A program made the translations under genes and the position numbers. 64,000 nucleotides of DNA from Companilactobacillus zhachilii. GTDB lineage: Bacteria > Bacillota > Bacilli > Lactobacillales > Lactobacillaceae. The notes beneath the pieces were generated by a model. That model saw only the letters and a program-made list of their open reading frames with translations. It made no database searches and had not been told where the DNA came from. Positions 3,637 through 60,420 of the stretch are shown piece after piece (the first letter of the stretch is position 1; every line of letters begins with the position of its first letter). Location of the stretch: the NCBI RefSeq assembly GCF_003606365.2, contig NZ_CP031933.2:2294001-2358000 (forward strand), in the 5' to 3' direction.

Positions 3637-3824
3637 TGCCGCCTCCGGTTTTGCACGATGAAATCGCTGTGAGGACCGCTTCGAGCCAAAGCCTCGAAGC
3701 TCGATTTTGAACTTCGCCCAAAACGCGAATTTCAAAATACGTCCTGTGCTGTAAGGCCGAGAAAACCACTCGCCCTAACACCACTGCCACTGCTGACTTC
3801 ATTGTGCAAAACCTACGACTAGTT
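3637..3824 (-). repeat. Family A palindromic repeat, reversed, divergent stem
   Basis: It starts TGCCGCCTCC and ends ACTAGTTT. The outer stem is unlike most copies (GGTTTTGCACGATGAA against TTCATTGTGCAAAACC) yet fully paired. The inner stem is AGGAC/GTCCT in place of the usual GGGAC/GTCCC, a compensated change. Confidence 0.85.
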
Positions 3825-3927
3825 TAACTTGGAATCATGACTAGCAAAATACGTTTCCATATCCTGTAATTCTAGTCATTGATGACAAAATAATGCCTTT
3901 TAATATTGATTCAAAGCCAAACAATGA

Positions 3928-3994
3928 ACTAACCGGAAAGAACAATAAATTTGGTCCCCATAGCGATCTAAATTTCTTGCTCTTGGAGGTGGCA
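3928..3994 (+). repeat. Family A repeat, short form
   Basis: Only the outer stem remains, from ACTAACCGGAAAG to GGAGGTGGCAT. Hairpins P2-P4 are missing through a join at GGTC, the same join as at 10897 and 19723. It lies upstream of the deoxyribosyltransferase gene. Confidence 0.85.
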
Positions 3995-4052
3995 TATTTA
4001 ACTAACACAATACATTAACCATAAATAACAAAGAGGAGTCACTACTACACTC

Positions 4053-4526
4053 ATGGAAAAAAAGAATCGTGTTTACTTAGCTGGACCATTTTTCAGTGAA
4101 CATCAAATCAAACGTCTTGATGAAATTCAAAAACTATTGGAAGCCAATTCAACTATTGGTGACATCTTCCGTCCTGGTAAAGATGAATACACTGGTGCTG
4201 AATTTGGCTCATTCGAATGGCAAACTGCTGTTTACAAGCATGATATTAATAACATTAATGTTTCAGATGTTGTTGTCGCAATGTTAGACTATAAAATAGA
4301 AGAAAATGAATTAGAACCTGATTCCGGTACAATGTGGGAATGTGGTTATGCAATTGCTAATAACATCCCTGTTATCGGTGTGAGAAACATGACTGACGAA
4401 CCATTAAACTTGATGCTTGCTGGTAGTTTAACTGCTTTCTTCAATGGTAAAGATAGTATTCAAGAGATCAAAGATTATAATTTCAATACATTAATGACAC
4501 GCTACGAAAACGTTAAGGTACTTTAG
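4053..4526 (+). CDS. Nucleoside 2-deoxyribosyltransferase
   Basis: A 157-residue enzyme of the NDT family, which swaps the base on 2'-deoxynucleosides in nucleoside salvage. The N-terminal VYLAGPFFS, the D72 region and the active-site segment PDSGTMWECGYA match the family; by comparison with characterised lactobacillus enzymes E96 is the nucleophile and D72 and D90 are catalytic partners. Length matches the family (about 157). The nearest ribosome site, AGAGGAG, is 14 bases before the ATG, longer than usual. The TetR gene follows 11 bases later and may be co-transcribed. Confidence 0.93.
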   Translation: MEKKNRVYLAGPFFSEHQIKRLDEIQKLLEANSTIGDIFRPGKDEYTGAEFGSFEWQTAVYKHDINNINVSDVVVAMLDYKIEENELEPDSGTMWECGYAIANNIPVIGVRNMTDEPLNLMLAGSLTAFFNGKDSIQEIKDYNFNTLMTRYENVKVL

Positions 4527-4537
4527 GAGGATCAACC

Positions 4538-5089
4538 ATGTCACAAGTAACACAACGAACCGAAAAATCCATTATCACAGCAATGATTTCTCTCTTACAA
4601 AAGAAACCATTCGAAAAGATCACTGTCGGTGATATTTGTGACGAAGCATTGATCAACCACAGTACTTTTTATCGCTACTTTAGTGATAAATATGCTCTAC
4701 TACATGCGGTATTTTCATTTTTACTAGATGATTTGCTTAACAACACATCCAACGCAAAAACGATTGTCTATCAAATTGCGGATTTCATGGAGAAAAATAG
4801 TAGTTTTATTCATCATATTTCACCACAATATCAAACAAAGGCTAATCTTTACCCTGAATTTCGTAGTATCTTACAAGATATCGTGAAATCAAAGAGTAAT
4901 GATCCGGCCAGTCAAAATGATCCATTAATCAAAATGATTACTGAATCAGACTCCCCAGAATTAATGATCAGTTTCATTGTCGGTGGTTTAATTGGTTTAG
5001 TTGAATATCTCGAAGATAATGATTTCAATGTTTCACGCGATAAGTTCATCGAATTTACCGCTAACTTCTTTGCAAAATGGTCAAAATAG
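4538..5089 (+). CDS. TetR family transcriptional regulator
   Basis: A 183-residue DNA-binding repressor. The N-terminal helix-turn-helix is in ITVGDICDEALINHSTFYRYFSDK (about residues 28-51). The C-terminal part resembles the TetR_C effector domain seen in lactobacillus YxaF/DhaS-like regulators. It starts at an ATG after AGGAGG and is followed by a terminator. The MFS exporter at 5176 comes next in the same direction and is its likely target; the effector is unknown. Confidence 0.92.
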   Translation: MSQVTQRTEKSIITAMISLLQKKPFEKITVGDICDEALINHSTFYRYFSDKYALLHAVFSFLLDDLLNNTSNAKTIVYQIADFMEKNSSFIHHISPQYQTKANLYPEFRSILQDIVKSKSNDPASQNDPLIKMITESDSPELMISFIVGGLIGLVEYLEDNDFNVSRDKFIEFTANFFAKWSK

Positions 5090-5093
5090 AAAA

Positions 5094-5135
5094 AGCAAAC
5101 GGATTGTGTCAATTTGGCACAATCCGTTTTTGGGT
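5094..5135 (+). terminator. Terminator after the TetR gene
   Basis: AAACGGATTGTG pairs with CACAATCCGTTT across a nine-base loop, followed by a T-run. Confidence 0.88.
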
Positions 5136-5175
5136 TTACACTTGTAATATTGCGTTTATTTAAGGGAGGAAAAAA

Positions 5176-6354
5176 ATGCAGTCATCAAAACTAAATAAAA
5201 AATGGTTCCTATTGAGTATGATGTTAGTAGCTGCAAACTTGCGTCTACCAATTACGATCATCCCACCATTGTTGAGTACTATTGAAAAGGACCTTGGTAT
5301 TCCCAAATCATTGGCTGGTTTGATTACATCGATTCCCCTAATTACTTTTGCTATTCTTTCACCAGTTATCGTTAAAGTAGCCAAAAAACTTGGTAACGAA
5401 TTAACGATTTTTGTTTTCTTTATTCTATTAATTGCTGGTAGTTATTTACGAATCATTCCAACTGTTTGGGCCTTAATGTTGGGAACATTTTTAGCTGGAG
5501 TAGGAATTGACAGTGGTAATGTCTTAGTCCCAGCTCTAATAAAAGATCATTTGCCCCATCAAATTCCACTAGGAACAAGCCTTTACACCATGTCAATGCT
5601 ACTAATTGGTGCCATTGGTACAGCTTTATCAGGTGTTTTAATTACTAAAGTTAGTCTTCAATCAACATTAGCTATTTTATCTGTCGTTGCGATTGTTGCG
5701 CTAGTATTTTGGATTCCTAATCTGCGTTACAACCATCGTGAAACAGCCAAAAACTTTGAGCGGAAACAGTATCGAAGTGTTTGGAATCAAAATCTAGGTT
5801 GGTTGATCACTGCATTCTTTGGATTACAATCAATTGTTTATTATTCATTCGTAACCTGGTTGCCATCAATTTTGCAAAATCATGGTATCAGCACTATCTT
5901 TGCAAGTAACCTATTAACACTATTGCAATTGAGTGGTTTACCTTGTTCATTCATCGTACCTTTCCTATCAATTAGAAAAAACGGCCTAAGAAATCTGTTG
6001 ATAATGTTATTCGTTGGTTATGCAATCGCACCACTTGGCTATCTTATTTCCACAAGTAATGCAGTCTACTTAACAATCATCACTATTGTGACTGGTTTTG
6101 GATCTGGTTTAGCCTTCAATATGGCCGTTGTTTTCTTCACTGAAAAAACAACCAATCCTACTCAAACGGCTGAAGTTTCAGGAATGGCACAGTCAGCGGG
6201 TTATCTGTTAGCTGCCGTTGGCCCTGTCCTATTCGGATTCATCGAAAATGTTTCAGGTTCTTGGAATATGATTATTTTAATTCTAGTTGCTTTGTCTACC
6301 CTACTTGCACTATCCGGTTTACTTGTTGCACGACACAAACCTATTGAAGAATAA
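5176..6354 (+). CDS. MFS transporter, CynX/NimT-like
   Basis: A 392-residue major facilitator with about 12 hydrophobic helices. The opening AANLRLPITIIPPLL and the first-half layout resemble the CynX/NimT (cyanate / nitroimidazole) branch, but the substrate cannot be inferred. The ATG follows GGGAGG. It sits directly after a TetR gene and its terminator, a common arrangement for a regulated exporter. Confidence 0.88.
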   Translation: MQSSKLNKKWFLLSMMLVAANLRLPITIIPPLLSTIEKDLGIPKSLAGLITSIPLITFAILSPVIVKVAKKLGNELTIFVFFILLIAGSYLRIIPTVWALMLGTFLAGVGIDSGNVLVPALIKDHLPHQIPLGTSLYTMSMLLIGAIGTALSGVLITKVSLQSTLAILSVVAIVALVFWIPNLRYNHRETAKNFERKQYRSVWNQNLGWLITAFFGLQSIVYYSFVTWLPSILQNHGISTIFASNLLTLLQLSGLPCSFIVPFLSIRKNGLRNLLIMLFVGYAIAPLGYLISTSNAVYLTIITIVTGFGSGLAFNMAVVFFTEKTTNPTQTAEVSGMAQSAGYLLAAVGPVLFGFIENVSGSWNMIILILVALSTLLALSGLLVARHKPIEE

Positions 6355-6375
6355 AATACTTTATATGCTGTAGAA

Positions 6376-6402
6376 TTCCGCCTCCAGGAACCAGAAAATT
6401 TG
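6376..6402 (-). repeat. Family A remnant (one end only)
   Basis: TCCGCCTCCAGGAACCAGAA corresponds to one outer-stem arm of the copies at 8962 and 23086; the rest of the element is missing. Confidence 0.55.
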
Positions 6403-6532
6403 TTCTTTGGCTTGAATAAGCCGTAAATAAATTGGAGCATTAACTATTTTTACTTCAATAACGACTAGGGGTCCAAAATTTAAAGCATACTTGTAATCTT
6501 TCAAATTTTAATTATAAAGTCTATATTTATGA

Positions 6533-6582
6533 GGGCTAGATATTTTATCAGGATTTATCGGATAAAATATCTAGTCTTTTTT
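6533..6582 (+). terminator. Family C hairpin, terminator-like
   Basis: CTAGATATTTTATC pairs with GATAAAATATCTAG, and a T-run follows. It lies about 180 bases downstream of the MFS gene. Hairpins with the same CTAGATATTTT core occur at 32050, 42319, 48457 and 59187. Confidence 0.75.
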
Positions 6583-6610
6583 ATATTTTAATTCTTGGTA
6601 ATCTATGGTC

Positions 6611-6743
6611 GGTCTTCAAATTAATCTGATAAGAATTTATTCTGATACGGATAAATATTTTAAGAGAATGATTGTTCCAGAATCCTATCAAGATGGTAAT
6701 AAAAGCCATGAAAAATAATTCTTGAGTTAATAAAGAACTAGTC
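6611..6743 (+). repeat. 130-bp repeat, inverted copy at 53858-54004
   Basis: This segment is about 85 percent identical by eye to the reverse complement of 53858-54004; the main difference is a 17-base insertion in the other copy. There it directly flanks a full family A element; here the element itself has collapsed (6738-6761). Confidence 0.8.
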
Positions 6744-6761
6744 CGAATCTGGAGACGGCAT
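6738..6761 (+). repeat. Collapsed family A repeat (termini only)
   Basis: ACTAGTCCGAATCTGGAGACGGCA joins the two ends of the element seen complete at 53672-53860, which shares the CCGAATCT stem sequence. The whole interior has been lost. Confidence 0.75.
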
Positions 6762-6859
6762 ATCCACAATATAAAAAGTTTCATCCGCCTCTTTGTATTA
6801 TTTTATAATCAACTTTATAATGAAACGGTTACATTATGAATAAGGAGACTACTACATCA

Positions 6860-8870: not shown

Positions 8871-8961
8871 TTTAGAGTTTTGGGATTCACTATTGCCACA
8901 AAAGTAGTCAGAATCACAATATAATAATTTACTTACAACTTATTCGAAGAAAAGAATAACT

Positions 8962-9138
8962 TAGCCGGAAGGACCCAGAAAATTAGGTCGCCGTGAAGGT
9001 GGCGTTAGGGATTTATCCCTTACACCACGGGACGACTTTTGAGACTTACGGTTCCCAGTAAGGCTCAAAATCGAGATTGGAGACCTTGGCTCCAATCGGT
9101 CCCCACAGCGACCTAATTTTCTGGGTCCTGGAGGCGGA
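8962..9138 (+). repeat. Family A palindromic repeat
   Basis: Full copy from TAGCCGGAAGG to GGAGGCGGAC. Outer stem GGACCCAGAAAATTAGGTCG pairs with its complement at 9113-9132. P2 is AGGGA/TCCCT, P3 CTTAC/GTAAG, P4 ATTGGAG/CTCCAAT. It sits between two plus-strand genes. Confidence 0.9.
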
Positions 9139-9189
9139 CTTCCACAGCATATTTAATTTTCAGCTTCAAAATAACTAATATAAAAAAAT

Positions 9190-15112: not shown

Positions 15113-15114
15113 AT

Positions 15115-19645: not shown

Positions 19646-19722
19646 CCTAAACGTATTTAATTAACTAACACTTATATAATACTTAAAGTTATTCAATATT
19701 GATTCAAAAACAAACAATGAAC

Positions 19723-19789
19723 TAGCCCGAAAGAGCAAGAAATTTAGGTCCCCACAGCGACCTAAATTTCTTGCTCTTGGAGGTGGCAT
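19723..19789 (+). repeat. Family A repeat, short form
   Basis: The stem GAGCAAGAAATTTAGGTC folds on its complement with only a few bases of loop. Its junction is identical to those at 3928 and 10897. It lies between opuAA and the end of the etfA gene. Confidence 0.88.
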
Positions 19790-19823
19790 ATTAACTAGCG
19801 CCACACGTATATAATAAATATTT

Positions 19824-22726: not shown

Positions 22727-23085
22727 CAGAATTCTCCTCACATGTTAATTTTTTCACATACATATGTAAAAAAATATCCAACGATATTTTAATGATTTCA
22801 TCATAAGATATTTATTTGAAATTGTCCATATAATTATTTTATATATAAAAAGATAACGTTAATATATGTAAGCTATTCATTTATTCAAAATATACCTTAA
22901 TTCTTAGACAAATTGCTAACTCATAGTGGCCCGAAGCGCTTGACACATTTGACTAATACAATGCGTTCTTTAGTTCTTAGCTAAATCAAAATATACTTTA
23001 AACCTTAAGACTCTGGGAGTTATTGATGTGCTTTAAAATGTAATACTTCCATTTACCAACTATTTATTCAAAACAAAAAATAACC

Positions 23086-23264
23086 TAGCCGGAAGGGCCC
23101 AGAAAATTAGGTCGCCGTGAAGGTGGCGTTAGGGATTTATCCCTTACACCACGGGACGACTTTTGAAATTCGCGCACCTTGCGAAGTTCAAAATCGAGAT
23201 TGGAGACCTTGGCTCCAATCGGTCCCCACAGCGACCTAATTTTCTGGGCCCTTCCGGCGGACTA
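23086..23264 (+). repeat. Family A repeat with matching ends
   Basis: Full copy whose outer stem GGAAGGGCCCAGAAAATTAG pairs right to the tip, because the right end reads CCCTTCCGG instead of the usual CCTGGAGG. P2 and P4 equal those of the copy at 8962; P3 differs (TTCGC/GCGAA). Confidence 0.88.
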
Positions 23265-23302
23265 ATACCATCTCCACATCATGCTTAACCTTTAGCTATA
23301 CA

Positions 23303-23337
23303 CAAAAAAGCTGACGATAAAAATCGTCAGCTTTTAA
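23303..23337 (-). terminator. Terminator of the dlt operon
   Basis: AAGCTGACGAT pairs with ATCGTCAGCTT, with a T-run on the minus strand directly after the dltD stop. Confidence 0.88.
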
Positions 23338-24606
23338 TTATTTATTGTTTGAAAATTTCGTATTGTTAGCCCAAGTATCAGTTAAGAAGTAGCTATCCAT
23401 CTTATATTGAGTATCTTTAGGATTTGCTTTCTTATCCTTATAGAAGCCCTTTAGGTGATGGTCAAGCATCAACCAACCACGCCAACCCATGTGAATAGTA
23501 TCTTCGGCGATATAGTTTGGATTCTTAACATGTGATAGGTCCACAATATTGTTGAAACCTTGTGATCTTAATTGATATTTGATTTTTGTATCAAAGTTAG
23601 TAATCGTACTCATTGGCATCCCAGTATACTTGACCCAATGTGGGTTAACCGGTTGGATAACGAACATTACTTCGGTCTTGTTTTGTGCAAACATATATAA
23701 CAAAGCTTGGAAGTCATTGTATTCAGGTGAATGAGTATATGTTACATGACGGTGCGCATTCTTATATCTAACGATTCTCTTTTTCAATTCCTTCTTATAA
23801 AAGGAATTTCCGATTTGCAAATCATTATCACTTGAGTGCTTAGCTGCTAATTTAGTAGCTAGTTTATTTAAATCTTTGTAATCATACTTATCGGGTAATT
23901 GACTAGCTGCACGATCAATTGCTTTTTCATGGTCATTCATGGAAATTGAACCAAACAAATCATCTTGGCTCTGCAAACTAGAACGAGCAAAGTTTTTAAT
24001 ATAGAAACGTTGGAAGCTAGTAATTTCCTTACCTTCAGAGATTCGTTTCAAAGCACCATCTTCAATCGGTCCTTTATCAACATCCAAATCAAGCATTCGA
24101 TTAGCAATGTATTTATTCATTGCTTTATCTCCATTGCTTGAATTTAAAATAAAACCGGTCAATTGTAATGGTGACAAGAAATATTTAAATGCATCAGATG
24201 GTACACCGGATTTAGTAAACCATTGTGGGGAAATGATAAAGACGGCCTTATTCCCCTTCAAGTTAGTCATCCCTCCGACATTCATTGCCTGTGTCAATGA
24301 AGCCGTTCCGGGATTACCTTGCAAAAATGGCTTATTCTTCCAATGATATTTTTGCGCCATGGAAGATGGATGGAACGGATCCATTCTAGAAAGTTCCGAT
24401 GAACCAATAATAGGGATATAGTTTTCCTTCTCAGCAGCATTCTTAACGCTTTCACCTTTTAAGACCCGAACATCCAACGAAGTAGCAGCTTGTCTAACTT
24501 TTTGTGGTGTAACGGTTTTAAAGTTGATTGGAGCCCAGAGAAGGATTAACAAAGCGGCAATAGCAACTATAACAGGTCCAAAAATCATCCATAACTTTTT
24601 TTTCAT
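23338..24606 (-). CDS. dltD: Teichoic acid D-alanylation protein DltD
   Basis: A 422-residue membrane-anchored extracellular protein. One N-terminal hydrophobic helix is followed by the DltD catalytic fold: GSSELSRMDPFHPS (nucleophile Ser), the helical middle, and a C-terminal DTIHMGWRGW carrying the Asp/His pair. It takes part in the last transfer of D-alanine to lipoteichoic acid. It is the last gene of dltXABCD, three bases after dltC. Confidence 0.96.
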   Translation of the reverse strand: MKKKLWMIFGPVIVAIAALLILLWAPINFKTVTPQKVRQAATSLDVRVLKGESVKNAAEKENYIPIIGSSELSRMDPFHPSSMAQKYHWKNKPFLQGNPGTASLTQAMNVGGMTNLKGNKAVFIISPQWFTKSGVPSDAFKYFLSPLQLTGFILNSSNGDKAMNKYIANRMLDLDVDKGPIEDGALKRISEGKEITSFQRFYIKNFARSSLQSQDDLFGSISMNDHEKAIDRAASQLPDKYDYKDLNKLATKLAAKHSSDNDLQIGNSFYKKELKKRIVRYKNAHRHVTYTHSPEYNDFQALLYMFAQNKTEVMFVIQPVNPHWVKYTGMPMSTITNFDTKIKYQLRSQGFNNIVDLSHVKNPNYIAEDTIHMGWRGWLMLDHHLKGFYKDKKANPKDTQYKMDSYFLTDTWANNTKFSNNK

Positions 24607-28025: not shown

Positions 28026-28398
28026 ACTATACGCATTGTAGCTTGCGATTGTCATTCTAACGTTTGACAAACACAGCCTGTATCGGAATAAGAATCTATT
28101 TCCTATTACCGTGTTTTATTATTGAACGTCGTAATTTAAAAGTAAATAACTCTTGTTTACAATGACCAAAGTGTTAGTCTCATGTGACATTTTTGTAAGA
28201 TAATACGCTTACATTGACCGATACTTTATCGCTTATTTTTTATAAAAATATTCAACATAACTAATATAATAGAAGATTATAAAAATGAGTCTGGGATAAA
28301 ACACCCTTTCTCCGGTCAATTTACTAGCAAACAAGAGAGCTGTTACATAACTATTTCTTTCTTTAAATGTGGAACAAAACATAATTTTTTATCTTAAC

Positions 28399-28446
28399 CA
28401 AACAAGACTAGCAATCCGAAATCGGATTACTAGTCTTGTTTGCTTT
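28399..28446 (+). terminator. Family B hairpin
   Basis: AAACAAGACTAG-CAATCCGA pairs with TCGGATTA-CTAGTCTTGTTT. It stands alone between two divergent genes, so it looks more like a dispersed repeat than the terminator of a nearby gene. Confidence 0.6.
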
Positions 28447-28752
28447 GACACTCAGGCCCTCTTTTTCTATATTTTTGAGCTAGTCAACTTAATCATTACA
28501 TATCAAATGTTTTAAAAAAATATGTTCGTTACTTATTTATTAGAAAATAATCGGTGGCATTTTTAACATTATAAACATATTTTTTGAATATCGGCCAAAC
28601 CTTTTATAAACATAGATACAGTAGACTTATTTCAGTTTAGATAAAAATCATTTATAAATTACGATACAATCTGTAAAGAATATTTTGCTAAACTCTAATT
28701 ATGGAGCGGGTCCGTATGGATCTACTAATAAATAAAGTTAGGGGGACATCTG

Positions 28753-36316: not shown

Positions 36317-36371
36317 CACGAGCATCATATTATTAAGACATACATTTTAAACCTAGTTATTCCACTTAAAC

Positions 36372-36418
36372 CAAACAAGGCCCGCAATCCAAAATCGGAT
36401 TACGGGCCTTGTTTTACT
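36372..36418. terminator. Family B bidirectional terminator
   Basis: AACAAGGCCCG-CAATCC pairs with GGATTA-CGGGCCTTGTT. It lies between the convergent GNAT and alarmone synthetase genes. Downstream CTATATTTTGTCCCGCTCT is the conserved right flank also seen at 40170. Confidence 0.85.
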
Positions 36419-36468
36419 TAATGCTAGAAAGCTGACTATATTTTGTCCCGCTCTCTACTCTTTTTGTA

Positions 36469-40028: not shown

Positions 40029-40196
40029 AAAGAGTTTGGGACAAAACTATTATTATCTTTAAATATGCAGCATAAACGTGGAACAAAACATAGCTTTTTC
40101 CGCTTAAAACAAACAGCCCCAGCAATCCAAAATCGGATTACTGGGGCTGTTTGCCTTAATGCTCGAAAGCTGAACATGTTTTGTCCCACTCTTTTT
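40029..40196. repeat. Family B long-form unit, bidirectional terminator
   Basis: Outer arms AAAGAGTTTGGGACAAAAC and GTTTTGTCCCACTCTTT pair across 165 bases. Inside lies the hairpin AAACAGCCCCAG-CAATCC / GGATTA-CTGGGGCTGTTT (40110-40152). It separates convergent codB and the DHA2 gene. Partial relatives with the same outer arms are at 28286, 36372 and 42218. Confidence 0.85.
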
Positions 40197-42217: not shown

Positions 42218-42285
42218 AAAGTGGGGCAAAACAGGTTTAGCTTTCTAACATTAAGGAAAATGTCGCCAGCAATCCGATTTTGATT
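42218..42285 (-). repeat. Partial family B unit
   Basis: GAAAGTGGGGCAAAACAGG and CTTTCTAACATTAAG are the flank of other family B units read in reverse. Only half of the AATCC hairpin remains (CAGCAATCCGATTTTG). Confidence 0.55.
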
Positions 42286-42441: not shown

Positions 42442-42623
42442 TTAGTCTCTGGGTGCAAGAAATGTTGGCTGCAGTGCAGGTGGCGTTATGGCTTCAGCCA
42501 TTACACCACGGGACGAGTTTTGAAATTCGCGCACTTTGCGAAGTTCAAAATCGAGGTTCGAGACCGCTTTTCGGCTCGAACCGGTCCCCACAGCGCCAAC
42601 ATTTCTTGCACCCAGAGGCGGCA
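42442..42623 (+). repeat. Family A repeat, GGGTGCAAG stem class
   Basis: The outer stem reads TCTGGGTGCAAGAAATGTTGG, as at 31791, and both termini carry the TCTGGG form. P2 ATGGC/GCCAT, P3 TTCGC/GCGAA and P4 TTCGAG/CTCGAA are complete. It faces the stop of the DegV gene. Confidence 0.9.
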
Positions 42624-44419: not shown

Positions 44420-44582
44420 TTTTTTAAACTGAAAAACATTATGATAATTCGAATATCATATAATACCTGATAAAATCTTGAAATCATTGAATTGATACAA
44501 TCTAATGCTGTTATATACTTTCATCTCCGATACCCAGCTATTAAAATTTATTAATCAACAACATCCAAACCACCAAATAAAC

Positions 44583-44762
44583 TAGCCGGAAGGAGCAAGA
44601 AAATTTAGGTCGCCGTGAAGGTGGCGTTATGGCTTTAGCCATTACACCACGGGACGACTTTTGAGACTTGCGGTTTATGCAAGGCTCAAAATCGAGACAA
44701 AAGACCTTGGCTTTTGTCGGTCCCCACAGCGACCTAAATTTTCTTGCTCCTGCAGGCGGCAT
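44583..44762 (+). repeat. Family A palindromic repeat
   Basis: Full copy; stem GGAGCAAGAAAATTTAGGTCG. P4 is ACAAAAG/CTTTTGT, different from its neighbours. It ends 22 bases before the permease stop. Confidence 0.9.
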
Positions 44763-44784
44763 ACAAAAAAAGCCCTGAATACTA

Positions 44785-46413
44785 CTATTCAAGACTCTCC
44801 TTCAAATCATGTTCGCGCCAACCCATAGCTATCGTCAGTATGAGTCCTGCGGCTGTTAATAAAATGATATACCCAATGTTACGATTGAAATTGGCATCGC
44901 CCAAATACAAATCGCCTAATAACGTTGCCATAACTGCCACACCAATTCCGAAACGTTGTATTTTCGTAAAGGCTGTACCAGTTTGACTGCGTCTTTCTCT
45001 CTTTGTTATGTATGGTAATACAAATCCTAAGCCAATTAAAACAATAATGGCTACAAAATTTATCACCAATTCATACCACCACATTGATGAACCAAACGGA
45101 ACATCTTGTGGTCCAATCGCTGCAATCGTCGCAACGCCTGTAACTAACAGACACCACCAGCCGACTGCCAACGACATTGTTTTATTTTTTATATAAACAT
45201 ATCCAGACTTATACTTATCGTCATCCATTCTAATCTTAATATAAGACCAGAAAATCCAACAAGTTACCCCTGGCGAAATAATTCCATTTAAATTTAATAG
45301 CCAATTAAAGATATCTTTCATATTAGGTAACAAAATACCTAAAAACATAATGAAAGCACTCAAACCAACCGTTAGTAGATAACCGTTAATTGGCAAGCCT
45401 GCTGAATTTGTTTTCCGCAAGAACTTTGGCATATAACGATTACCCGTATCAGAAATCAACATTCTAGTCATTGCATTTAGCAAAACAGCCAACAAAGCTG
45501 CTAAATAAAAGATTTCTGTAAAGGCGAAGAGATACATTAATGTATTGCCCATGTGGAATCTTTGACCCAAGGCTTGAAAGGCATAATAGGAACCATTGAT
45601 TTTCAAATCATCTGGTAAATGGTAAGCGTTGAAAAATACGCCCAGAGAAAATGATCCGAAAATGGTCAAAAATCCCGTCATGATGGACAACATAATCATT
45701 GCTTTAGGAAAGTCACGGTTAGGATTACGCATCTTTGTTACAAAGGGCGCAATTCTCTCGGCACCATTAATTGCAAAAATCAAAAACCCTAAGGTAGTTA
45801 AATAATGCAAATTAAATGTTGGTACGATTGTATGAACCGTCAATGGTTTCGTCGCAATATGACCACCCATCGACAGTGCCGTCACAGTCATCAAAACGAA
45901 TAAAACCGTCATTCCAAACATGGCAATTCCACCGATAGTACTCAGTACTTCAAGTGATCGCTCAAAGCGGGATTGAATAATTATGAAGAAAATAAAAATC
46001 AATAACGTGAATAATGCGAAATGACTATTCGACATCTGTGTCTGCAAACGTGCATCGCCATTAACGACCCAGCCCATTGCCACAGCAATTGTATTCGCGG
46101 TATCAACAACGTAAGGAATTGAAGCAGCCCAATATGTCCAAGCTGCGAAGTAACCTAAGAATTCCCCACTAGTTTCTCTTACCCATGATGTTAACCCGCC
46201 TCCATCATCATCAAACGTCGAGCCAAGTTGGCCTACCATTAATGAATACGGAATAACATACAGGAGAATCATAATGATCCAGGACGTTATTACGCCCATT
46301 CCCTGATTTTGGAAGTTGTAAGTCAGGTCATCGAACCCAACAACTGTCACAAAATCCATAAGGGCCAATACTGGCCAGCTGATATACTTCTTCTTTGTAT
46401 CTAATTCTGTCAT
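44785..46413 (-). CDS. APC-superfamily amino-acid permease (paralog 1)
   Basis: A 542-residue permease with about 12-14 hydrophobic helices. The start SWPVLALMDFVTVVGFDDLTYNFQNQG and the helix-3 region TSWVRETSGEFLGYFAAWTYW fit the APC superfamily. About three quarters of its residues are the same as in the gene at 48816, so one arose by duplication. Substrate unknown; amino acid or amine exchange is likely. Confidence 0.88.
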   Translation of the reverse strand: MTELDTKKKYISWPVLALMDFVTVVGFDDLTYNFQNQGMGVITSWIIMILLYVIPYSLMVGQLGSTFDDDGGGLTSWVRETSGEFLGYFAAWTYWAASIPYVVDTANTIAVAMGWVVNGDARLQTQMSNSHFALFTLLIFIFFIIIQSRFERSLEVLSTIGGIAMFGMTVLFVLMTVTALSMGGHIATKPLTVHTIVPTFNLHYLTTLGFLIFAINGAERIAPFVTKMRNPNRDFPKAMIMLSIMTGFLTIFGSFSLGVFFNAYHLPDDLKINGSYYAFQALGQRFHMGNTLMYLFAFTEIFYLAALLAVLLNAMTRMLISDTGNRYMPKFLRKTNSAGLPINGYLLTVGLSAFIMFLGILLPNMKDIFNWLLNLNGIISPGVTCWIFWSYIKIRMDDDKYKSGYVYIKNKTMSLAVGWWCLLVTGVATIAAIGPQDVPFGSSMWWYELVINFVAIIVLIGLGFVLPYITKRERRSQTGTAFTKIQRFGIGVAVMATLLGDLYLGDANFNRNIGYIILLTAAGLILTIAMGWREHDLKESLE

Positions 46414-48815: not shown

Positions 48816-50438
48816 CTAATCTTCAATCAAGTTATATTCTTTCCAACCAAAGACAATTACCAAAATAATCCCCAAAATACTAATACCAACAATTGAGACA
48901 ATATTATGTTGATAATTTGAACCACCTAAGTATAAATCACCAACAATCGTTAGGAACAATGCTGCCAAAATTCCACTCCATTGAAGACGTGTAAAGGCAG
49001 AACCTGTTGTACTACGTTCTTCACGACGAGTTACATATGGCAAGACTACTCCTAATCCAATCAATACAATAATTGCGACAAAGTTAATAACTAATTCATA
49101 CCACCAAGTTGAACCACCAAATTTAACATCTTGTGGTCCAATTCCAAAAATAGTTGCCAAGGCTGTGACAATCAAACACCACCAACCGACTGACAATGCT
49201 AACTTGTCATTTTTGATATAAACATAATCTGATGGATACTTTTTACTATCTTGACGAATCTTAATAAATGCAAAGAAAATCCAGCAAGTAACACCTGGTG
49301 AAATAATTCCGTTCAAGTTCAAGAGCCAGTTAAAAATATCATTCATACTTGGCAAGAAAATACCTAATAACATAATAAAGGCACTCAATCCACAAGTTAG
49401 TAAGTAACCATTAACTGGTAATCCATTACCATTAGTTTTACGCAAAACTTTTGGCATATACTTGGCGCCAGTATCTGAAATCAACATTCTGGTCATTGCA
49501 TCCAACAAGACGGCTAACAAAGCTGCCAAATAGAAAACTTCGGTCCAAGCAAAAATATACATTAATAAATTACCCAGATGATATTGCTCACCTAACGCTT
49601 GGAACGCATAATATGAGCCATTCATCTTCAAATCATTTGGTAAATGATAGGCATTGAAGAAAACGCCTAGTGAGAATGATCCAAAGATTGTTAAGAAAGC
49701 TGTCATAACAGCTAACATAATCATAGCCTTAGGAAATTCTCGTTTAGGATGACGCATTTTCGTAACGAACGGTGCAATCAATTCTGCACCATTAACCGCA
49801 TAGATCAATAAACCAACGGTCGTTAGATAATGCAAATCAAACTTAGGAATAATCGTGTGAATATTCATTGGTTGTGTAGCAATATGACCACCACGAGCTA
49901 AGGCTGTAAAAGTCATTAACACGAATAAAACAGTCATTCCAAACATGGCAATTCCACCAATAGTACTCAAGAATTCCAATGAACGCTTGAAACGTGACTG
50001 TACAAAAATAAAGACAATAAATGTGGCTAATGTCCAAAAAGCAAACCAGCCATTTGACATATGATCTTGCAAACGAGCATCCCCGAAGTATGCCCAACCT
50101 AGACCAACGACAATTGAATTGGCCGTATCGACCACATAAGGAATTGAAGCTGCCCAATAAGTCCAAGCAGTAAAATAGCCTAAAAATTCCCCACTAGTAC
50201 CACGAACCCATGACGTCAAACCGCCACCTTCGTGATTGAAAACTGATCCTAATTGACCAACCATTAATGAATATGGGATGACATATAAAAATAGCATGAT
50301 AATCCATGAAGTAATAACACCCATACCTTGGTTTTGAAAGTTATAAGTTAAATCATCAAAACCGATTACAGTAACAAAATCCATTAAGGCAAGAATTGGC
50401 CAGCTAATATAGCTCTTTTTTGGTTCCAAATCTTCCAT
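48816..50438 (-). CDS. APC-superfamily amino-acid permease (paralog 2)
   Basis: A 540-residue permease with the same helix plan as the gene at 44785. Differences concentrate at both termini and in GGHIATQPMNIHTII-type loops. The ATG at 50438 follows GGGGAG; an in-frame start further up (50474) has no ribosome site. Substrate unknown; the duplication may have split substrate range or regulation. Confidence 0.88.
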   Translation of the reverse strand: MEDLEPKKSYISWPILALMDFVTVIGFDDLTYNFQNQGMGVITSWIIMLFLYVIPYSLMVGQLGSVFNHEGGGLTSWVRGTSGEFLGYFTAWTYWAASIPYVVDTANSIVVGLGWAYFGDARLQDHMSNGWFAFWTLATFIVFIFVQSRFKRSLEFLSTIGGIAMFGMTVLFVLMTFTALARGGHIATQPMNIHTIIPKFDLHYLTTVGLLIYAVNGAELIAPFVTKMRHPKREFPKAMIMLAVMTAFLTIFGSFSLGVFFNAYHLPNDLKMNGSYYAFQALGEQYHLGNLLMYIFAWTEVFYLAALLAVLLDAMTRMLISDTGAKYMPKVLRKTNGNGLPVNGYLLTCGLSAFIMLLGIFLPSMNDIFNWLLNLNGIISPGVTCWIFFAFIKIRQDSKKYPSDYVYIKNDKLALSVGWWCLIVTALATIFGIGPQDVKFGGSTWWYELVINFVAIIVLIGLGVVLPYVTRREERSTTGSAFTRLQWSGILAALFLTIVGDLYLGGSNYQHNIVSIVGISILGIILVIVFGWKEYNLIED

Positions 50439-50760
50439 AATAAGCTCCCCGATAAAAAAATTAATAAAACACAAAGATATATTTTACAACTTATCATTTT
50501 CTATAAATAGAGCTTAAAAACGTTTTCTTAAAATAATGGTATTTTTTTGGTATGCCGCCTCCGGGAGTAAGAAATTTAGGTCGCTGTGAAGGTGGCGTTA
50601 AGGCTTTAGCCTTTACACCACGGGACGAGTTTTGAGACTTGCGGTTTTTGCAAGGCTCAAAATCGAGATTCGAGACCGCACTCTGGCTCGAATCGGTCCC
50701 CACAGCGACCTGAATTTCTTGCTCCTTGTGGCGGCATATTTAACCAACACCAATCGTCAT
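50439..50760. other. Gene-free stretch with one family A repeat
   Basis: About 110 bases of AT-rich DNA upstream of permease paralog 2, then the repeat at 50553-50736. Nothing else is seen. Confidence 0.7.
50553..50736 (+). repeat. Family A repeat with exchanged left end
   Basis: Both termini are of the GCCGCC/GGCGGC type (TGCCGCCTCCGGGAG and CTTGTGGCGGCA), while the interior is in forward orientation. An exchange within the palindrome would explain this. P2 AAGGC/GCCTT, P4 TTCGAG/CTCGAA. Confidence 0.85.
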
Positions 50761-54504: not shown

Positions 54505-56388
54505 CTACTTATTGATTGTTTTCTTACTATAACCTTTACCGACGGTCAAATCGTATTGAACTAATTTATAATCGTGCAATAATTTCTTTTGTTTATCAGT
54601 TAAGTCCTTGGTTGTAACTTGCTTACTATCAGCATCTACGTACAAGTTTTCATTTTTACCCACACTATTTTTTGCCATGGCAGGAATTTCTTCTTGAACT
54701 TTTGTTAACAAAGCATAATACGGTGTAACTTTTTGTTGCATCTGCTTCAAAGCTAACGGAATAAAACCATTGGGATCAGTTACTTCGGTTGAATCGGTAA
54801 GCTTTCGCGTACCTTTGCCGTGATCAATGGCGTATTTATTACTATAAATAAAGTAATCCGTTTCGTGTTGAACGACGTTATACTTTTTCATCGAATTTTT
54901 GGCATATAGACCTGGTAAATGATCGCCGTACCAAACAACTGTAATTGGCTTTTTAATTTTATCCAATTTATCTAAAAAGGCCTGTGTGGAATCATCCGTA
55001 AAGTTAATACTTTTAGCATAATTAGAAACTTGTTGTGGTATCTCGGCGGCTTTACCATCGAGAACTGTAAATTGGTCATTGTCATACATAACGTTATAAG
55101 GCATGTGATTTTGCATCGTCACTAAACTAATAAACTGTCCGCCCTTAGTTTGATTAACTTGCCAAAGCGTATTTTTATATGAAGCCTCATCACTGACAAA
55201 GGGATCACCGCCAATAGTATCAGTGTATTTCAGTGCCAATTTACCAGTTGAATCAATATTACGGAATGTTTGAAAGCCAAATTTAGGATAGACGGTTTGA
55301 CGATCGTAGAAATTACCGTGATATGGGTGAATGGCAGCCGATGTATTGAAACTATTAACAATATTCACAGGATGATCTTGCTTTGTAACTAACTGTGTAT
55401 ATGGTGATTGCAATGATTTGGAGAACTGGTTATAAGCTAAGCCGGTAAAAGTCATATATTCCATATTGGCAGTCCCGCCACCGTAACCTGAACTTAGCAT
55501 TAAGCCGGAAGTGTTCTCCTTCTTAATATTCATAATTTTAGGTGCAGCTTCTTGGTTAAGCTTAATATTGGGAACTCGACTTGGATCCGCAAAACTTTCA
55601 CTCAGAACAAAAATCAACGTCTGTTTGTGTAAATCGTTATTAGGTCGATTTTGATTAATCCCATTTGCAACGTTACGATATTTTTTCACTAATTTATTCA
55701 TCGTGGCTTCGTTATAACCACTAGGTTTATCCATGATATCTACATGCATATTACCTAAAAAGGTTAGTAACGGACCATTCGTTGTGGCTGTCATACTAAT
55801 ATTCGGCGTAAAATTAGAATAACCAACTTTGGACATCAATTTATTGATTGTTGAACCCTCTTGGTTAACATTATAAAAGCCACCAATACTAAGTCCCGCT
55901 AGTAACACTAGAATGATTCTTGTAACGATGTTAAAACGCAGTAATTCTTTGGAAAAAATTTTCTCTAACATAACGCATATCGTAACAATCAACAAAATTG
56001 CCACAACTGCTAAGACAAGAATCTTAGTGCTAATCATTGGCAACATTGCCTTAGCATCCGATATGAACTTCAAGTCATTAGGTAAAACGGGTTCAGAACG
56101 ATAAATAACTTTTAACTTATTGGCGACAATATAAATGGCAAAGAAAACGTAAAAGACTGCCGTCGCATAAAAGAAGCGATTAAATAATCCATAAACACCT
56201 AAATAAAGTAACGTTAAGATTAATGCTGTGACCAAGTATGGTGCAACGTTTGTCTTAAATAAAATTCCATTCGTAGTCTGTACTGAAGCGGTTTGCGAAT
56301 AACTCAAAAGATATCCTACTAAAAACGCTGATAGGACAATAAATATTAACTGTAAAAAATATACCGCAATAGATCTTTTTGTATGCAT
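54505..56388 (-). CDS. LtaS-family sulfatase-fold phosphotransferase (paralog 1)
   Basis: A 627-residue protein with five hydrophobic helices (about 1-190) and an extracellular sulfatase-fold domain. FVLSESFADPSRVPN carries the metal-binding Glu, GGGTANMEYMTFTGL the likely catalytic Thr, and VWYGDHLPGLY the Asp/His metal site. Such enzymes add glycerol-phosphate to teichoic acids or glycans. The ATG at 56388 gives exactly the same length as paralog 2. Substrate assignment (LTA synthase versus related transferase) is open. Confidence 0.88.
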   Translation of the reverse strand: MHTKRSIAVYFLQLIFIVLSAFLVGYLLSYSQTASVQTTNGILFKTNVAPYLVTALILTLLYLGVYGLFNRFFYATAVFYVFFAIYIVANKLKVIYRSEPVLPNDLKFISDAKAMLPMISTKILVLAVVAILLIVTICVMLEKIFSKELLRFNIVTRIILVLLAGLSIGGFYNVNQEGSTINKLMSKVGYSNFTPNISMTATTNGPLLTFLGNMHVDIMDKPSGYNEATMNKLVKKYRNVANGINQNRPNNDLHKQTLIFVLSESFADPSRVPNIKLNQEAAPKIMNIKKENTSGLMLSSGYGGGTANMEYMTFTGLAYNQFSKSLQSPYTQLVTKQDHPVNIVNSFNTSAAIHPYHGNFYDRQTVYPKFGFQTFRNIDSTGKLALKYTDTIGGDPFVSDEASYKNTLWQVNQTKGGQFISLVTMQNHMPYNVMYDNDQFTVLDGKAAEIPQQVSNYAKSINFTDDSTQAFLDKLDKIKKPITVVWYGDHLPGLYAKNSMKKYNVVQHETDYFIYSNKYAIDHGKGTRKLTDSTEVTDPNGFIPLALKQMQQKVTPYYALLTKVQEEIPAMAKNSVGKNENLYVDADSKQVTTKDLTDKQKKLLHDYKLVQYDLTVGKGYSKKTINK

Positions 56389-56798
56389 GATTAAAAACAC
56401 CCTTATTTGTTGAGTCACACGTGATGATGCTAGTTTATTTTTTGACTATGTGTCAAAAGATGCAGAATATACCCCGTATCTTATCATTCTAACCATTATT
56501 GACAAAATAATAAACTAACCGGAAAGAGCAAGAATTTTTGGTCGCTGTGTAGGTGGTGTAGGCGCTTTAGCGCCTACACCACGGGACGACTTTTGAAACT
56601 CGCGATTTGTGCGAGGTTCAAAAGCGAGCCGAAAGACTTTGGCTTTCGGCGATTCCCATAGCGACAAAAATTTCTTGCTCTTGGAGGTGGCATATTTAAC
56701 TAGCACAACACGATAACATCTATATTAACCCATTTTTATCAATGCACGACTGATAATTCAAAAAACAGTTTCCAATTTTCTTATGAATCTGAAGAGAA
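56389..56798. other. Gene-free stretch with one family A repeat
   Basis: A full family A repeat (56516-56692) with about 100 bases of unremarkable AT-rich DNA on either side. Confidence 0.7.
56516..56692 (+). repeat. Family A palindromic repeat
   Basis: Full copy. P2 is a near-perfect long hairpin, GGTGTAGGCGC/GCGCCTACACC. P4 GCCGAAAG/CTTTCGGC. It lies between the two LtaS-like genes. Confidence 0.9.
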
Positions 56799-58682
56799 CT
56801 ACTTGTTTATTGTACTTTTAGAATAATTATTACCAGCTGTCAGATCGTATTGGACGAGCTTGTAATCGTCGATAAGTTTCTTTTGTTTAGCGGTTAAATT
56901 CTTTTCGTCTACTTCCTTACTATTTTTATCAACATATAAAGAATTAGTGTTATCAGAAATACTTTTGGCCATTGCTGGTACTTCTTCTTGAACCCTAGTC
57001 AAAAGAGCGTAATATGGCGTAACCTTTTGATTCATTTGCTTCAAAGCCAACGGAATAAACCCATTTGGATCAGTTACTTGTGTCGCGTCATCAAGTTTAG
57101 TTGTGCCATAGTTATGTTCACGAGCATATTTATTACTGTAAATGAAGTAATCTGTCTCATGTTCTGGCACGTTGTAAGTGTACATATCGTTATTATCATA
57201 AATTCCGGGCAAATGATCACCATACCAAACGACTGTAATTGGTTTATCAATTGCATCCAGCTTATTCAGAAAATCCTTTGTCGCTACATCAGTAATACTC
57301 ATGCCTTTAGCATAGTTATTGACTTGGTCACGATTTTTATCCGTTACACCAGCACCAGTATTTTTAAATTCATTGCTAGAATACTCATTCACATAAGGCA
57401 TGTGATTTTGCATCGTTATCAAATTGATAAATTGACCACCACTAGTTTGATTAATTTGCCACAGAGCATCGTTATAGGCTGAGTCATCACTGACATATTC
57501 CATCCCCGGCAAAGTATTTTTATACTTCAGTGCTAATTTTCCACTAGTGTCAATATTTCTAAATGTTTGTATTCCAAAATTTTGATAAACAGAATTACGA
57601 TTATAAAAATTCCCATGATAAGGATGAATAGCGGCAGACGTTTGAAAATTATTAGCAATATTGATTGGGTTTTCCTGCTTATTCACAACCTGTGTATATG
57701 GTGACTGCAATGTATCTGAAAACTGATTCATTGCCAAGCCCGTTAACGTCATATACTCCATATTAGCCGTTCCACCGCCATAGCCAGAACTCATCATCAA
57801 ACCAGACGTAGTTTTATCTTTGATAGCCCTAATATTAGGCATCGGATCTTGATTCATTTTAATATTGGGAACCCGTGTTGGATCAGAAAAACTTTCACTT
57901 AAAACAAAAATCAATGTTTGCTTACTCAAATCGTTATTGTCACGATTCTGATTGATTTTTTTAGCTTCCTGTTGATATTTGCTAACAATCGATAGCATTT
58001 TTTCCTTACTGTAATTAGCAGGTTTATCCATAATATCAACATACATATTACCCAAAAATGTCAGCATTGGGCCATTGCTATTAGCCGATCGATTAATATT
58101 TGAATCTAAATTAGTATATCCTGAAGCGGCTAAAATTTTATACGTCATAGAATTAGTGTCACTCGCCGTATAAAAAATACCGATACTAAATGCCGTCAAG
58201 GCAACAAAAATCAATCTAGGTATCGTTTTAAAACGCAACATGAATTTACCAAAACGGCGTTCTAGCAAGACAAATATCACAATCGCCGCAATCAAAACTA
58301 TCACTAATGCAACGATTAACTTTGTCGTAACCATCGACATCAGACTCTTAATATTTTTCAAAAGTAATAGATCACTCGGCAAAATTGGTTCTGAACGATA
58401 GGTAACCTTTAATCTATCCGCAACGGCATAAATCAAGAAGAAAATAAAATAGACCGCCGAAGCATAGAAGAACCGATTAAAAATCCCGTAGAGACCCAAA
58501 TATATTACAAATAAAATTAGAACTGTCAGTAAATATGTATTTAAATTAGTTTCAAAAACAATTTGTGTTGTAAAAATTAAATCATTAGTTTGAGCGTAGT
58601 TTAAAACAAACCCGACAGCAAAAGATGACGCTATCATAAATAGTATCTGTAAAACCCCTACTGCCCTATTTTCTTTATGCAT
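56799..58682 (-). CDS. LtaS-family sulfatase-fold phosphotransferase (paralog 2)
   Basis: A 627-residue paralog of the gene at 54505, with the same five-helix N-terminus and catalytic motifs (SESFSDPTRVPN, GGGTANMEYMTLTGL, VWYGDHLPGIY). Roughly two thirds of the residues match. The ATG at 58682 is favoured over one at 58700 because the GAGG site and the following MHKEN agree with paralog 1 (MHTKR). Tandem duplication is the simplest origin. Confidence 0.88.
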   Translation of the reverse strand: MHKENRAVGVLQILFMIASSFAVGFVLNYAQTNDLIFTTQIVFETNLNTYLLTVLILFVIYLGLYGIFNRFFYASAVYFIFFLIYAVADRLKVTYRSEPILPSDLLLLKNIKSLMSMVTTKLIVALVIVLIAAIVIFVLLERRFGKFMLRFKTIPRLIFVALTAFSIGIFYTASDTNSMTYKILAASGYTNLDSNINRSANSNGPMLTFLGNMYVDIMDKPANYSKEKMLSIVSKYQQEAKKINQNRDNNDLSKQTLIFVLSESFSDPTRVPNIKMNQDPMPNIRAIKDKTTSGLMMSSGYGGGTANMEYMTLTGLAMNQFSDTLQSPYTQVVNKQENPINIANNFQTSAAIHPYHGNFYNRNSVYQNFGIQTFRNIDTSGKLALKYKNTLPGMEYVSDDSAYNDALWQINQTSGGQFINLITMQNHMPYVNEYSSNEFKNTGAGVTDKNRDQVNNYAKGMSITDVATKDFLNKLDAIDKPITVVWYGDHLPGIYDNNDMYTYNVPEHETDYFIYSNKYAREHNYGTTKLDDATQVTDPNGFIPLALKQMNQKVTPYYALLTRVQEEVPAMAKSISDNTNSLYVDKNSKEVDEKNLTAKQKKLIDDYKLVQYDLTAGNNYSKSTINK

Positions 58683-58809
58683 TAAATAAAACATCCTCAT
58701 CTTATAATCATAGTATGTATTCTAAACCAAATTATTTTAATATCTAGAGAAATATTATAACGCTTGCACAATAATAGCAACTTAACTAACGCGTGGTGCT
58801 AGTTAAATA

Positions 58810-58986
58810 TGCCACCTCCAAGGGCAAGAAATTAGGTCGCTATGGGGACCGACAAAAGCCAAGGTCTTTTGTCTCGATTTTGAACCTCGCACAAATCGCG
58901 AGTTTCAAAACTCGTCCCGTGGTGTAAGAGCTAAAGCTCCAACGCCACCTGCATAGCGACCTAATTTCTTACTCTTTCCGGCTAGT
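58810..58986 (-). repeat. Family A palindromic repeat, reversed
   Basis: Nearly identical to the copy at 35096: TGCCACCTCCAAGGGCAAG to TTCCGGCTAGTT. The stem tip has G where the other has A, and the partner is a wobble there. Confidence 0.9.
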
Positions 58987-59186
58987 TCATTTTTTGTTTT
59001 TGAATCAATATTAAACAGCTTTAAGCATTATTTTGCCATCAGTGACTAGAATTATAGAATATAAAGCATGTTTTGAATCTTTTGACTTTATAAATTATTT
59101 CAATTACACAATCAGAAAATCAACTAACACCACGAGTTAACTATGATGCCCGTATATGTGAATAGGGTTATCATTAGCATCGAAAA

Positions 59187-59243
59187 ATAGACTAGATATT
59201 TTACCGAGATACACCCAGATTAAAAAATATCTAGTCTATTTTA
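59187..59243 (-). terminator. Family C hairpin, terminator of the flavodoxin-fold gene
   Basis: AAAATAGACTAGATATTTT pairs with AAAATATCTAGTCTATTTT; it ends eight bases before the stop at 59251 and has T-runs on both strands. Confidence 0.82.
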
Positions 59244-59250
59244 TTGTTTT

Positions 59251-59832
59251 CTACTTTTTTGCATAAAGGTCAGGTATTTCATTTAAGAATTGTTCACGTT
59301 TTTCATCCGTCGTTACATTGACCTCTCCAAAGTGAATCCAATTAACATTTTGAGGAGAGATTCCGATATCTGCCAAAGTCCGATTTATAAAGATTTGCCG
59401 AATTGGGTCGCCACATTCTTCTTCTAAATAACTCTTTGTCACAGTCGAAGTAGTTATGACCGTCACCTTTTTAATATACGTCAATAACCCTTTCCAACCA
59501 TCATCTTCGTTATAAGCAAAATTATTCAGCATTACTTTATCAAAGAACCCTTTTAACATTCCAGGCATATTTTGCCACCAGATTGGGAAAATAAAAATCA
59601 ATTCATTTGAGACAGCAATTTTTCGCTGGTACCTTCTTACCAATTCATCATCCGTTTTTCCTTCACTGTACAAAGCCAGTTCTTTTTCCGTAAAAGTGGG
59701 ATCGAAGTTATCAGCATATGGATCGATTATTTCATATTCTTCATCATTCTTTGAAAAGCCATTCGTCAATCGATTCAAAATCTCATGATTAAAACTTCCC
59801 GCATATGGATGAGTATAAATAATTGTTTTCAT
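59251..59832 (-). CDS. Flavodoxin-fold NAD(P)H oxidoreductase (KefF/NQO type)
   Basis: A 193-residue flavoprotein. IIYTHPYAGSFNHEILNRL opens the flavodoxin_2 fold, and IFIFPIWWQNMPGMLKGFFDKVM is the conserved FMN/FAD-binding and dimer segment. It probably reduces quinones or similar electrophiles. The ATG at 59832 is nine bases from AAGGAG; an upstream TTG lies inside that spacer. Confidence 0.9.
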   Translation of the reverse strand: MKTIIYTHPYAGSFNHEILNRLTNGFSKNDEEYEIIDPYADNFDPTFTEKELALYSEGKTDDELVRRYQRKIAVSNELIFIFPIWWQNMPGMLKGFFDKVMLNNFAYNEDDGWKGLLTYIKKVTVITTSTVTKSYLEEECGDPIRQIFINRTLADIGISPQNVNWIHFGEVNVTTDEKREQFLNEIPDLYAKK

Positions 59833-60072
59833 ATTCAAAATCTCCTTGTCACTTTATAACTCTAGTATATTACGTTTTTAAGGAATTAAAGAATCAATTA
59901 CCAGTGATATTTATAGTCAAATTTGAGCTAAGACGTTCAACCTTTAAGCCTGTAATAGCAAGCAATTCCTAATCTTTTTGAGCCTATGAAGTTTATTCCA
60001 ATTTAATATTGTATTACATAATTTTTCTATATAGAATGCTGTAAATCTCAAGTGTCATATTAGCCCATTAGC

Positions 60073-60118
60073 AAAGAAGACTAGTAATCCTATTTTGGAT
60101 TGCTAGTCTTCTTTATTT
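60073..60118. terminator. Family B hairpin
   Basis: AAAGAAGACTAG-TAATCC pairs with GGATTG-CTAGTCTTCTTT. It is not directly behind a gene; it could end the YitT transcript 310 bases downstream. Confidence 0.6.
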
Positions 60119-60237
60119 TAAGTAATTTTTCTACATATTCCATTTATTAAAGATGTCATATTCTTACTCAGTACTAATGGATTCTTTGACTACGGAATCA
60201 AAATTATTATTTATTGATTCAAAAGCCAGGAATAACC

Positions 60238-60420
60238 TAGCCGGAAAGAGCAAGGAATTTTGGTCGCTGTGAAGGTGGCGTTGGAGCTTCAGCGCCTACA
60301 CCACGGGACGACTTTTGAGACTTGCGGTTTATGCAAGGCTCAAAATCGAGATTGGAGACCGCTCTATGGCTCCAATCAGTCCCCATAGCGACCAAAATTT
60401 CTTGCTCTTGGAGGCGGCAT
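60238..60420 (+). repeat. Family A palindromic repeat
   Basis: Full copy; stem GAGCAAGGAATTTTGGTCGC. P2 is slightly mispaired (GGAGCTTCAGCGCC), P3 CTTGC/GCAAG, P4 ATTGGAG/CTCCAAT. Confidence 0.9.

Follow-up and report, generated by a model that had tools for sequence, protein, structure and literature searches.

A covarying 180-bp intergenic repeat of Lactobacillaceae is probably the arm of a MITE-like non-autonomous transposon

What is the palindromic repeat of about 180 bp that recurs between the genes of a 64-kb stretch (hereafter the window) of the Companilactobacillus zhachilii genome (G000; one contig of 2,714,973 bp)? A first-pass annotation, made from the letters of the window alone, had listed 19 full-size copies, three short forms and several remnants, and had suggested a non-autonomous mobile repeat or a structured RNA or DNA element. 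We built a covariance model, R1, from the 19 aligned window copies, and this model recovered the same inventory in the same places: 19 full copies, scoring 145.9–199.7 bits (E values of 3e-55 to 6e-40), and three short forms, all on the plus strand, to which several end-only remnants are added. In what follows, a copy of the 180-bp repeat is called a core or an arm. Both parts of the earlier suggestion find support, mobility in terminal inverted repeats, 7–8-bp duplications and an empty site in relatives of another genome, and structure in strong covariation across genera. The answer that we favour, at a probability of roughly three in four, is that each copy is a structured arm of a non-autonomous DNA transposon, from a Lactobacillaceae family that resembles miniature inverted-repeat transposable elements (MITEs). 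We extend the earlier reading by taking two such repeats, head to head, as the arms of a dimer within a larger mobile unit.

The repeat is not confined to the window. G000 has at least 150 full-length matches, and in twenty 20-kb stretches of this genome (a 400-kb sample) R1 finds 59 further full copies, a count that leaves out two matches cut by stretch ends and one short form. Extrapolation from this sample gives about 400 full cores, or just under 3% of the genome; the window is twice as dense as the sample. R1 also matches 31 of 36 Companilactobacillus genomes, G000 included, and, under strict filters, 103 of 397 genomes of the family, distributed over 11 of 40 genera. The core pattern is further present in records of Companilactobacillus nantensis, C. 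insicii and C. huachuanensis. Of 395 genomes in the order, 32 are matched by a wider model, R2, built from 31 sequences; 20 of them lie within the family, and the matches in the 12 outside it are weak (27–52 bits, best E 2e-10). Rfam release 15 gave no match at the gathering threshold in the 64 kb, and a search of 801 bp with E values up to 5 gave no match near its gathering score. The combination of hundreds of copies in one genus and no Rfam match, proposed earlier as the mark of a new family, is therefore what we observe, and no description or published name of the repeat was found in open-access full texts. As first reported, no window copy lies inside an accepted gene; several open reading frames (ORFs) of 76–109 codons overlap copies and were not accepted as genes. 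Over 464 kb of G000, 72 of 78 full copies are intergenic, five lie at stretch edges and one lies over the start of a called ORF, the caller having dropped ORFs shorter than 160 codons that lay over a copy.

Each core folds into a long outer stem around hairpin A and a GGGACGA/CGGTCCC stem bearing hairpins B and C. Scored on a structure derived from the same alignment, two-sided change was found across genera in 55 of 65 base pairs; 95.9% of cells were paired, compared to 74.1% after shuffling, and 469 cells were two-sided, compared to 130. None of 500 shuffles reached any of five covariation measures, which, together with the number of matches in the genome, excludes a chance origin of the repeat. 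After slides of 1–3 columns, 34.5–40.5% of cells were paired. Because the ends and the outer stem covary, the end sequences that the first-pass annotation ascribed to all copies are not common to all: exact TAGCCGG is present in 9 of 19 and GGAGGCGGCA in 4, and the interior landmarks GGTGGCG, ACACCACGGGACGA and CGGTCCCCACAGCGAC occur in 13, 16 and 7, respectively. Other Companilactobacillus species have a second class of core, which has no hairpin C and carries CTCAG/CGTTCC at its inner stem; copies with the CGTTCC motif are also found in the genomes G259 and G321.

Long palindromes are corrected by template switching during replication, and outer stems here are often replaced wholesale, on both sides at once, as might be expected if imperfect palindromes were corrected in this way without any selection on the fold. 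We regard such a mutational artefact as highly improbable. Correction should be strand-symmetric, yet G-U outnumbers A-C by 124 to 36 in the 78 G000 copies (sign test p = 0.0003) and by 82 to 13 across genera (p = 0.0001), one fixed G.T loop pair being excluded from these counts; therefore, one particular strand folds. Moreover, conservation instead of correction is seen at some unpaired core positions and at a C.A mismatch in hairpin A (C in 46, T in 18 and not read in 14 of the 78 copies). This mismatch lies outside the model's pairs and points in the opposite direction to the G-U excess. The strand running from YTAG to GGCA also folds slightly better (-98.4 versus -95.1 kcal/mol; lower in 49 of 78). 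The G-U bias and the strand energies favour a folded RNA or single DNA strand over strand-symmetric palindrome correction.

The cores are arranged in a characteristic order. Among close neighbours (<600 bp apart), 38 of 40 pairs stand head to head, that is, with their 5' ends facing: 16 of 17 in G000, 8 of 8 in G011, 11 of 12 in G259 and 3 of 3 in G321. Both exceptions belong to triples. Weak model matches may be assigned the wrong orientation: in G259, the core at L178:16182 starts as plus cores do although it was called minus, and the count for this genome is 11 of 12 either way. Partners are less alike than expected from random re-pairing in G000 (P = 0.001) and in G259 (P = 0.02), where 9 of 11 pairs join two clusters. 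The spacers of the window pairs measure 163–443 bp. Judged by chromosome halves, 97 of the 150 best-scoring copies are oriented against replication, a ratio of about two to one; the unselected position sample shows a weaker trend (46 of 78).

This arrangement recalls bacterial interspersed mosaic elements (BIMEs), in which paired, inverted repetitive extragenic palindromes (REPs) are mobilised, in the form of folded single strands, by a transposase of the Y1 (HUH) type, the REP-associated tyrosine transposase (RAYT). In Escherichia coli, Y and Z REP units stand in such inverted pairs. Like them, the present repeats are extragenic palindromes in inverted heterotypic pairs, with hundreds of intergenic copies, and the 5' tetranucleotide YTAG/GTAG at the stem foot, the better-folding strand and the facing against replication would all fit. 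The Y1_Tnp domain (PF01797) is encoded in 18 of 36 genomes of the genus, including two of the four richest in candidates (G011 with two matches, G012 with one partial). Nevertheless, a BIME-like origin seems quite unlikely. The other two of these four, G000 and G024, have no Y1_Tnp match, and units in G321 carry terminal inverted repeats and 7–8-bp duplications, neither of which Y1 transposition is known to make. In addition, the core of about 180 bp, with its long outer stem and three inner helices, is several times longer than the single-hairpin REPs, which are given as 20–40 bp in PMC3733652.

The mobile unit is most legible in G321, which belongs to another genus (g38). Here, a pair of cores is bounded by the 14-bp CTAAAGGTTGAAAG in inverted order, and the unit of about 540 bp reads CTAAAGGTTGAAAG, minus core, a spacer of about 20–35 bp, plus core and inverted repeat, with no long ORF. 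The inverted repeat occurs at 132 sites (≤1 mismatch), compared to none for a reversed-pattern control. Sixteen distinct bounded units, drawn from 30 loci, a part of all sites, are 201–549 bp long, with a longest ORF of 91 codons; 14 of them are flanked by a duplication of 7–8 bp (six exact 8-bp, six exact 7-bp and two 8-bp with one mismatch), whereas the same criteria were satisfied by only 2 of 240 combinations of flanks from different units. A single core match was obtained in each of two units, of 293 and 319 bp, and at least 22 further G321 matches to the head-to-head pair, with 84–89% identity, are among the matches listed. The site orthologous to one G321 copy is empty in G383 and G238. 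A TA duplication of the IS630 type, read from one empty site, was considered and is ruled out by the 14-bp repeat and the 7–8-bp duplication in the aligned units; DDE_3 (PF13358) occurs in 2 of 33 genomes (G011 and, weakly, G049), and in neither G000 nor G321. In relatives of G000, too, orthologous gaps are often without a core: one of 662 bp with a pair in G000 measures 95 bp in G023 and 106 bp in G018, and another of 669 bp is 112 bp long in G024.

From these repeats and duplications we infer that a transposase supplied in trans would recognise the ends of the unit. The two core types would represent its left and right ends, the fold would be kept since it serves the element, most simply as a recognition or regulation structure in its RNA or single-stranded DNA, and solo cores may descend from pairs. 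A more daring version, which we consider rather doubtful, holds that each arm would be a functional RNA or folded single DNA strand needed for movement or tolerance, that the left end would differ in fold from the right, both folds being multibranched and deeply conserved, and that the transposase would read shape more than sequence. Such a reading, if true, would account for the constancy of the shape and of the G-U bias despite wholesale replacement of the outer stems.

The G321-type inverted repeat is also enriched over the control elsewhere, with 21 versus 2 sites in G000, 14 versus 4 in G011 and 24 versus 1 in G259. Loose repeats were allowed when intervals were delimited in these three genomes, so the intervals are tentative; the repeat bounds single cores in three of four intervals in G000 (316, 337 and 340 bp, without duplications) and cores in six of six in G259. 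Two further end types, TIR-A and TIR-B (TIR, terminal inverted repeat), are found in G000, and one TIR-A copy, at locus L067, has an exact 8-bp duplication. This TIR-A unit (L067:10566-10904) appears to sit inside the remnant of another core, which would mean that the elements nest.

Cores thus occur in units with differing ends, namely TIR-A (including the L067 copy with its duplication), TIR-B and the CTAAAGG repeat, which would suit a passenger structure carried inside ordinary MITEs of several insertion sequences and neither mobile itself nor needed for mobility. However, a useless structure would hardly keep such covariation through 11 genera, and the head-to-head order of close cores also speaks against this; we judge it very unlikely.

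Searches for Y1_Tnp, DDE_3 and ISL3 did not reveal the transposase: the first two have no match in G000, where ISL3 is represented by one partial gene. ISL3-type elements, with which the TIR-A subfamily was compared, combine a repeat starting with GG, an 8-bp duplication and a transposase with matching ends; the L067 copy has its exact 8-bp duplication, and no TIR-A repeat was found beside the partial ISL3 gene of G000. In the window, the initial impression that no transposase is visible agrees with a Pfam scan of 10 of the 82 listed ORFs. Locations considered for the transposase were rejected. Gaps of 0.86–5.1 kb between head-to-head neighbours in G000, part of two further gaps of this genome, a 1.87-kb gap at L176 and G321 repeat intervals of 3.7 and 6 kb hold what look, by eye, like host genes. 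A reading frame that terminates at the CTAG of one subfamily was also discarded: it is open for about 45 codons in one copy and broken or divergent in the rest.

Several observations weigh against a transposon of this kind. Flanking duplications are weak outside G321 (0 of 4 intervals in G000, 1 of 2 in G011, the one without a core, and 1 of 6 in G259), and none lies directly at the 180-bp core in 105 G000 copies, of which only 6 have the repeat near the 3' end (≤5 mismatches), compared to 13 of 1050 shuffled. The right repeat of the G321 copy opposite the empty site is lost, and this site therefore does not fix both ends. The evidence that each of the window's own pairs is one inserted unit is indirect, and in G011 the partners of a pair do not differ significantly in type (P = 0.19). 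Where head-to-head cores or repeats lie far apart in the genomes sampled, reading by eye, without a Pfam scan, showed no autonomous element, only apparent host genes. Finally, blastn searches of 72,556 plasmids with two queries and of 50,697 phages with one yielded no copy, which is odd for a mobile element; nine stretches of viral contigs carry the repeat plus four bases.

Could the copies instead be structured RNAs, or terminators or insulators, kept by the host at gene borders, their spread being secondary? The compensatory changes and the excess of G-U over A-C would be consistent with this, as would an A-rich stretch upstream of the core, which on the other strand is a U-rich tract behind a hairpin, and the presence in four species of cores at the same place behind a dltD-like gene. 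On the other hand, the genes around the copies show no clear preference of arrangement or orientation (+E+ 24, -E- 20, +E- 15, -E+ 13), orthologous sites are often core-free, five of the 36 genus members have no R1 match, and a terminator would fold on the strand opposite to that favoured by the G-U counts. We therefore consider a host function of this type unlikely.

If the copies are arms of a MITE-like family, those of the window would mostly be decayed relics, solo or paired, with decayed outer ends and some of them within TIR-A or TIR-B units. They are given below by window position, with R1 scores.

3617..3630, plus: possible terminal inverted repeat relic TTAAAGGTTGTAAG, 2 mismatches to CTAAAGGTTG[AC]AAG
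3635..3822, minus: full core (arm), facing short form 3929 head to head; 153.8 bits
3929..3996, plus: short form, core interior deleted; 35.5 bits
6374..6402, minus: remnant, core 3' end; by eye, approximate
6738..6762, plus: remnant, two core ends joined, interior lost; by eye, approximate
8961..9141, plus: full core, solo; 194.6 bits
10896..10964, plus: short form; 52.2 bits
14507..14685, minus: full core, pair with 14930, gap 244; 186.9 bits
14930..15113, plus: full core, pair with 14507; 184.2 bits; orthologous site in G023 and G018 without core match
19722..19790, plus: short form; 50.6 bits
23085..23264, plus: full core, solo, downstream of dltD-like gene 23338-24606 (minus); 197.9 bits
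31789..31967, minus: full core, pair with 32188, gap 220, TTAGTCTC subfamily; 184 bits
32188..32369, plus: full core, pair with 31789; 192.1 bits
35094..35271, minus: full core, solo; 192.9 bits
42442..42625, plus: full core; the enclosing unit has its own TIR-A repeats at 42284 and 42626; 182.4 bits
44230..44418, minus: full core, pair with 44582; 145.9 bits; orthologous G024 site empty
44582..44763, plus: full core, pair with 44230; 199.7 bits
48198..48376, minus: full core, pair with 48650; 192.8 bits
48650..48804, plus: core without hairpin C (counted among the 19), pair with 48198; 151.6 bits
50554..50738, plus: full core, solo; 184.8 bits
53670..53858, minus: full core, pair with 54302; 150.2 bits
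54302..54483, plus: full core, pair with 53670; 192.5 bits
56515..56694, plus: full core, solo, TIR-B subfamily; 185.6 bits; orthologous G024 site without core match
58808..58985, minus: full core; the enclosing unit has TIR-B repeats at 58792 and 59118; 185 bits; G024 site empty
60237..60421, plus: full core, solo; 190.7 bits
61397..61417, minus: remnant, core 3' end; by eye, approximate; orthologous G011 site is a head-to-head pair

The possible relic at 3617..3630 sits just beyond the 3' end of the core at 3635, and the same repeat bounds the G321 units. Four genomes (G000, G024, G012 and G011) carry different cores behind the dltD-like gene (window 22742-23337; L105-L108), so named for its position beside dltB- and dltA-like genes. 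At this site the 3' end of the core faces the gene in G000, G012 and G011, and the G024 core is reversed, with a remnant 3' end on the gene side; the pattern suggests repeated insertion or replacement at one place. Three IS630-like copies in G011 (L224, L226 and L227), two of them identical over 1248 bases, lie at CTAG sites, and at L224 and L227 this site is the 5' CTAG of a core, whose foot has thus been the landing site of another insertion sequence. The window also contains a dispersed terminator-like hairpin with arms GCAATCC...GGATTACTGG (28384-28481, 36357-36454 and 40095-40192), the loop of which appears to be split by a TIR-A unit at 42442 and at L058:6214, as well as paralogue pairs standing side by side, namely amino acid permeases (44785-46413 and 48816-50474) and sulfatase-domain proteins (54505-56418 and 56799-58700).

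Among described systems, MITEs are likewise short and gene-free; as in MITEs, the elements end in inverted repeats, are flanked by a target duplication and occur in many copies between genes, and relatives have an empty site. Unlike MITEs, they have two arms of about 180 bp, in each of which a multibranched fold is conserved and covaries across genera; they occur in 11 of 40 genera of the family, and no related transposase was found among the families searched. The length of the core, its three inner helices, the terminal inverted repeats of G321 and the lack of Y1_Tnp in G000 set them apart from the REPs and BIMEs of E. coli. The pneumococcal RUP, BOX and SPRITE elements, as described in PMC10969869 and PMC2267715, are likewise small, dispersed intergenic repeats of a Firmicute, some inserted into one another; the strongly covarying core and the double-arm unit distinguish the present family, by description rather than by sequence. 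Lac-1 of Lactobacillus johnsonii, according to PMC2267715, is similarly a stem-loop-containing repeat family of a lactobacillus, but one listed as 231 nt and mainly genic, whereas the elements here are intergenic; this comparison, too, is by description and not by sequence.

A high-copy repeat present in 11 of 40 genera of an industrially used bacterial family, and absent from Rfam, bears on the annotation of intergenic DNA in lactobacilli; for this repeat, a covariance model is now at hand, and G321 is a genome in which its units are legible. It also raises a testable question: what makes a gene-free transposon retain, in both of its arms, a multibranched fold that covaries, and by which enzyme is the element moved?

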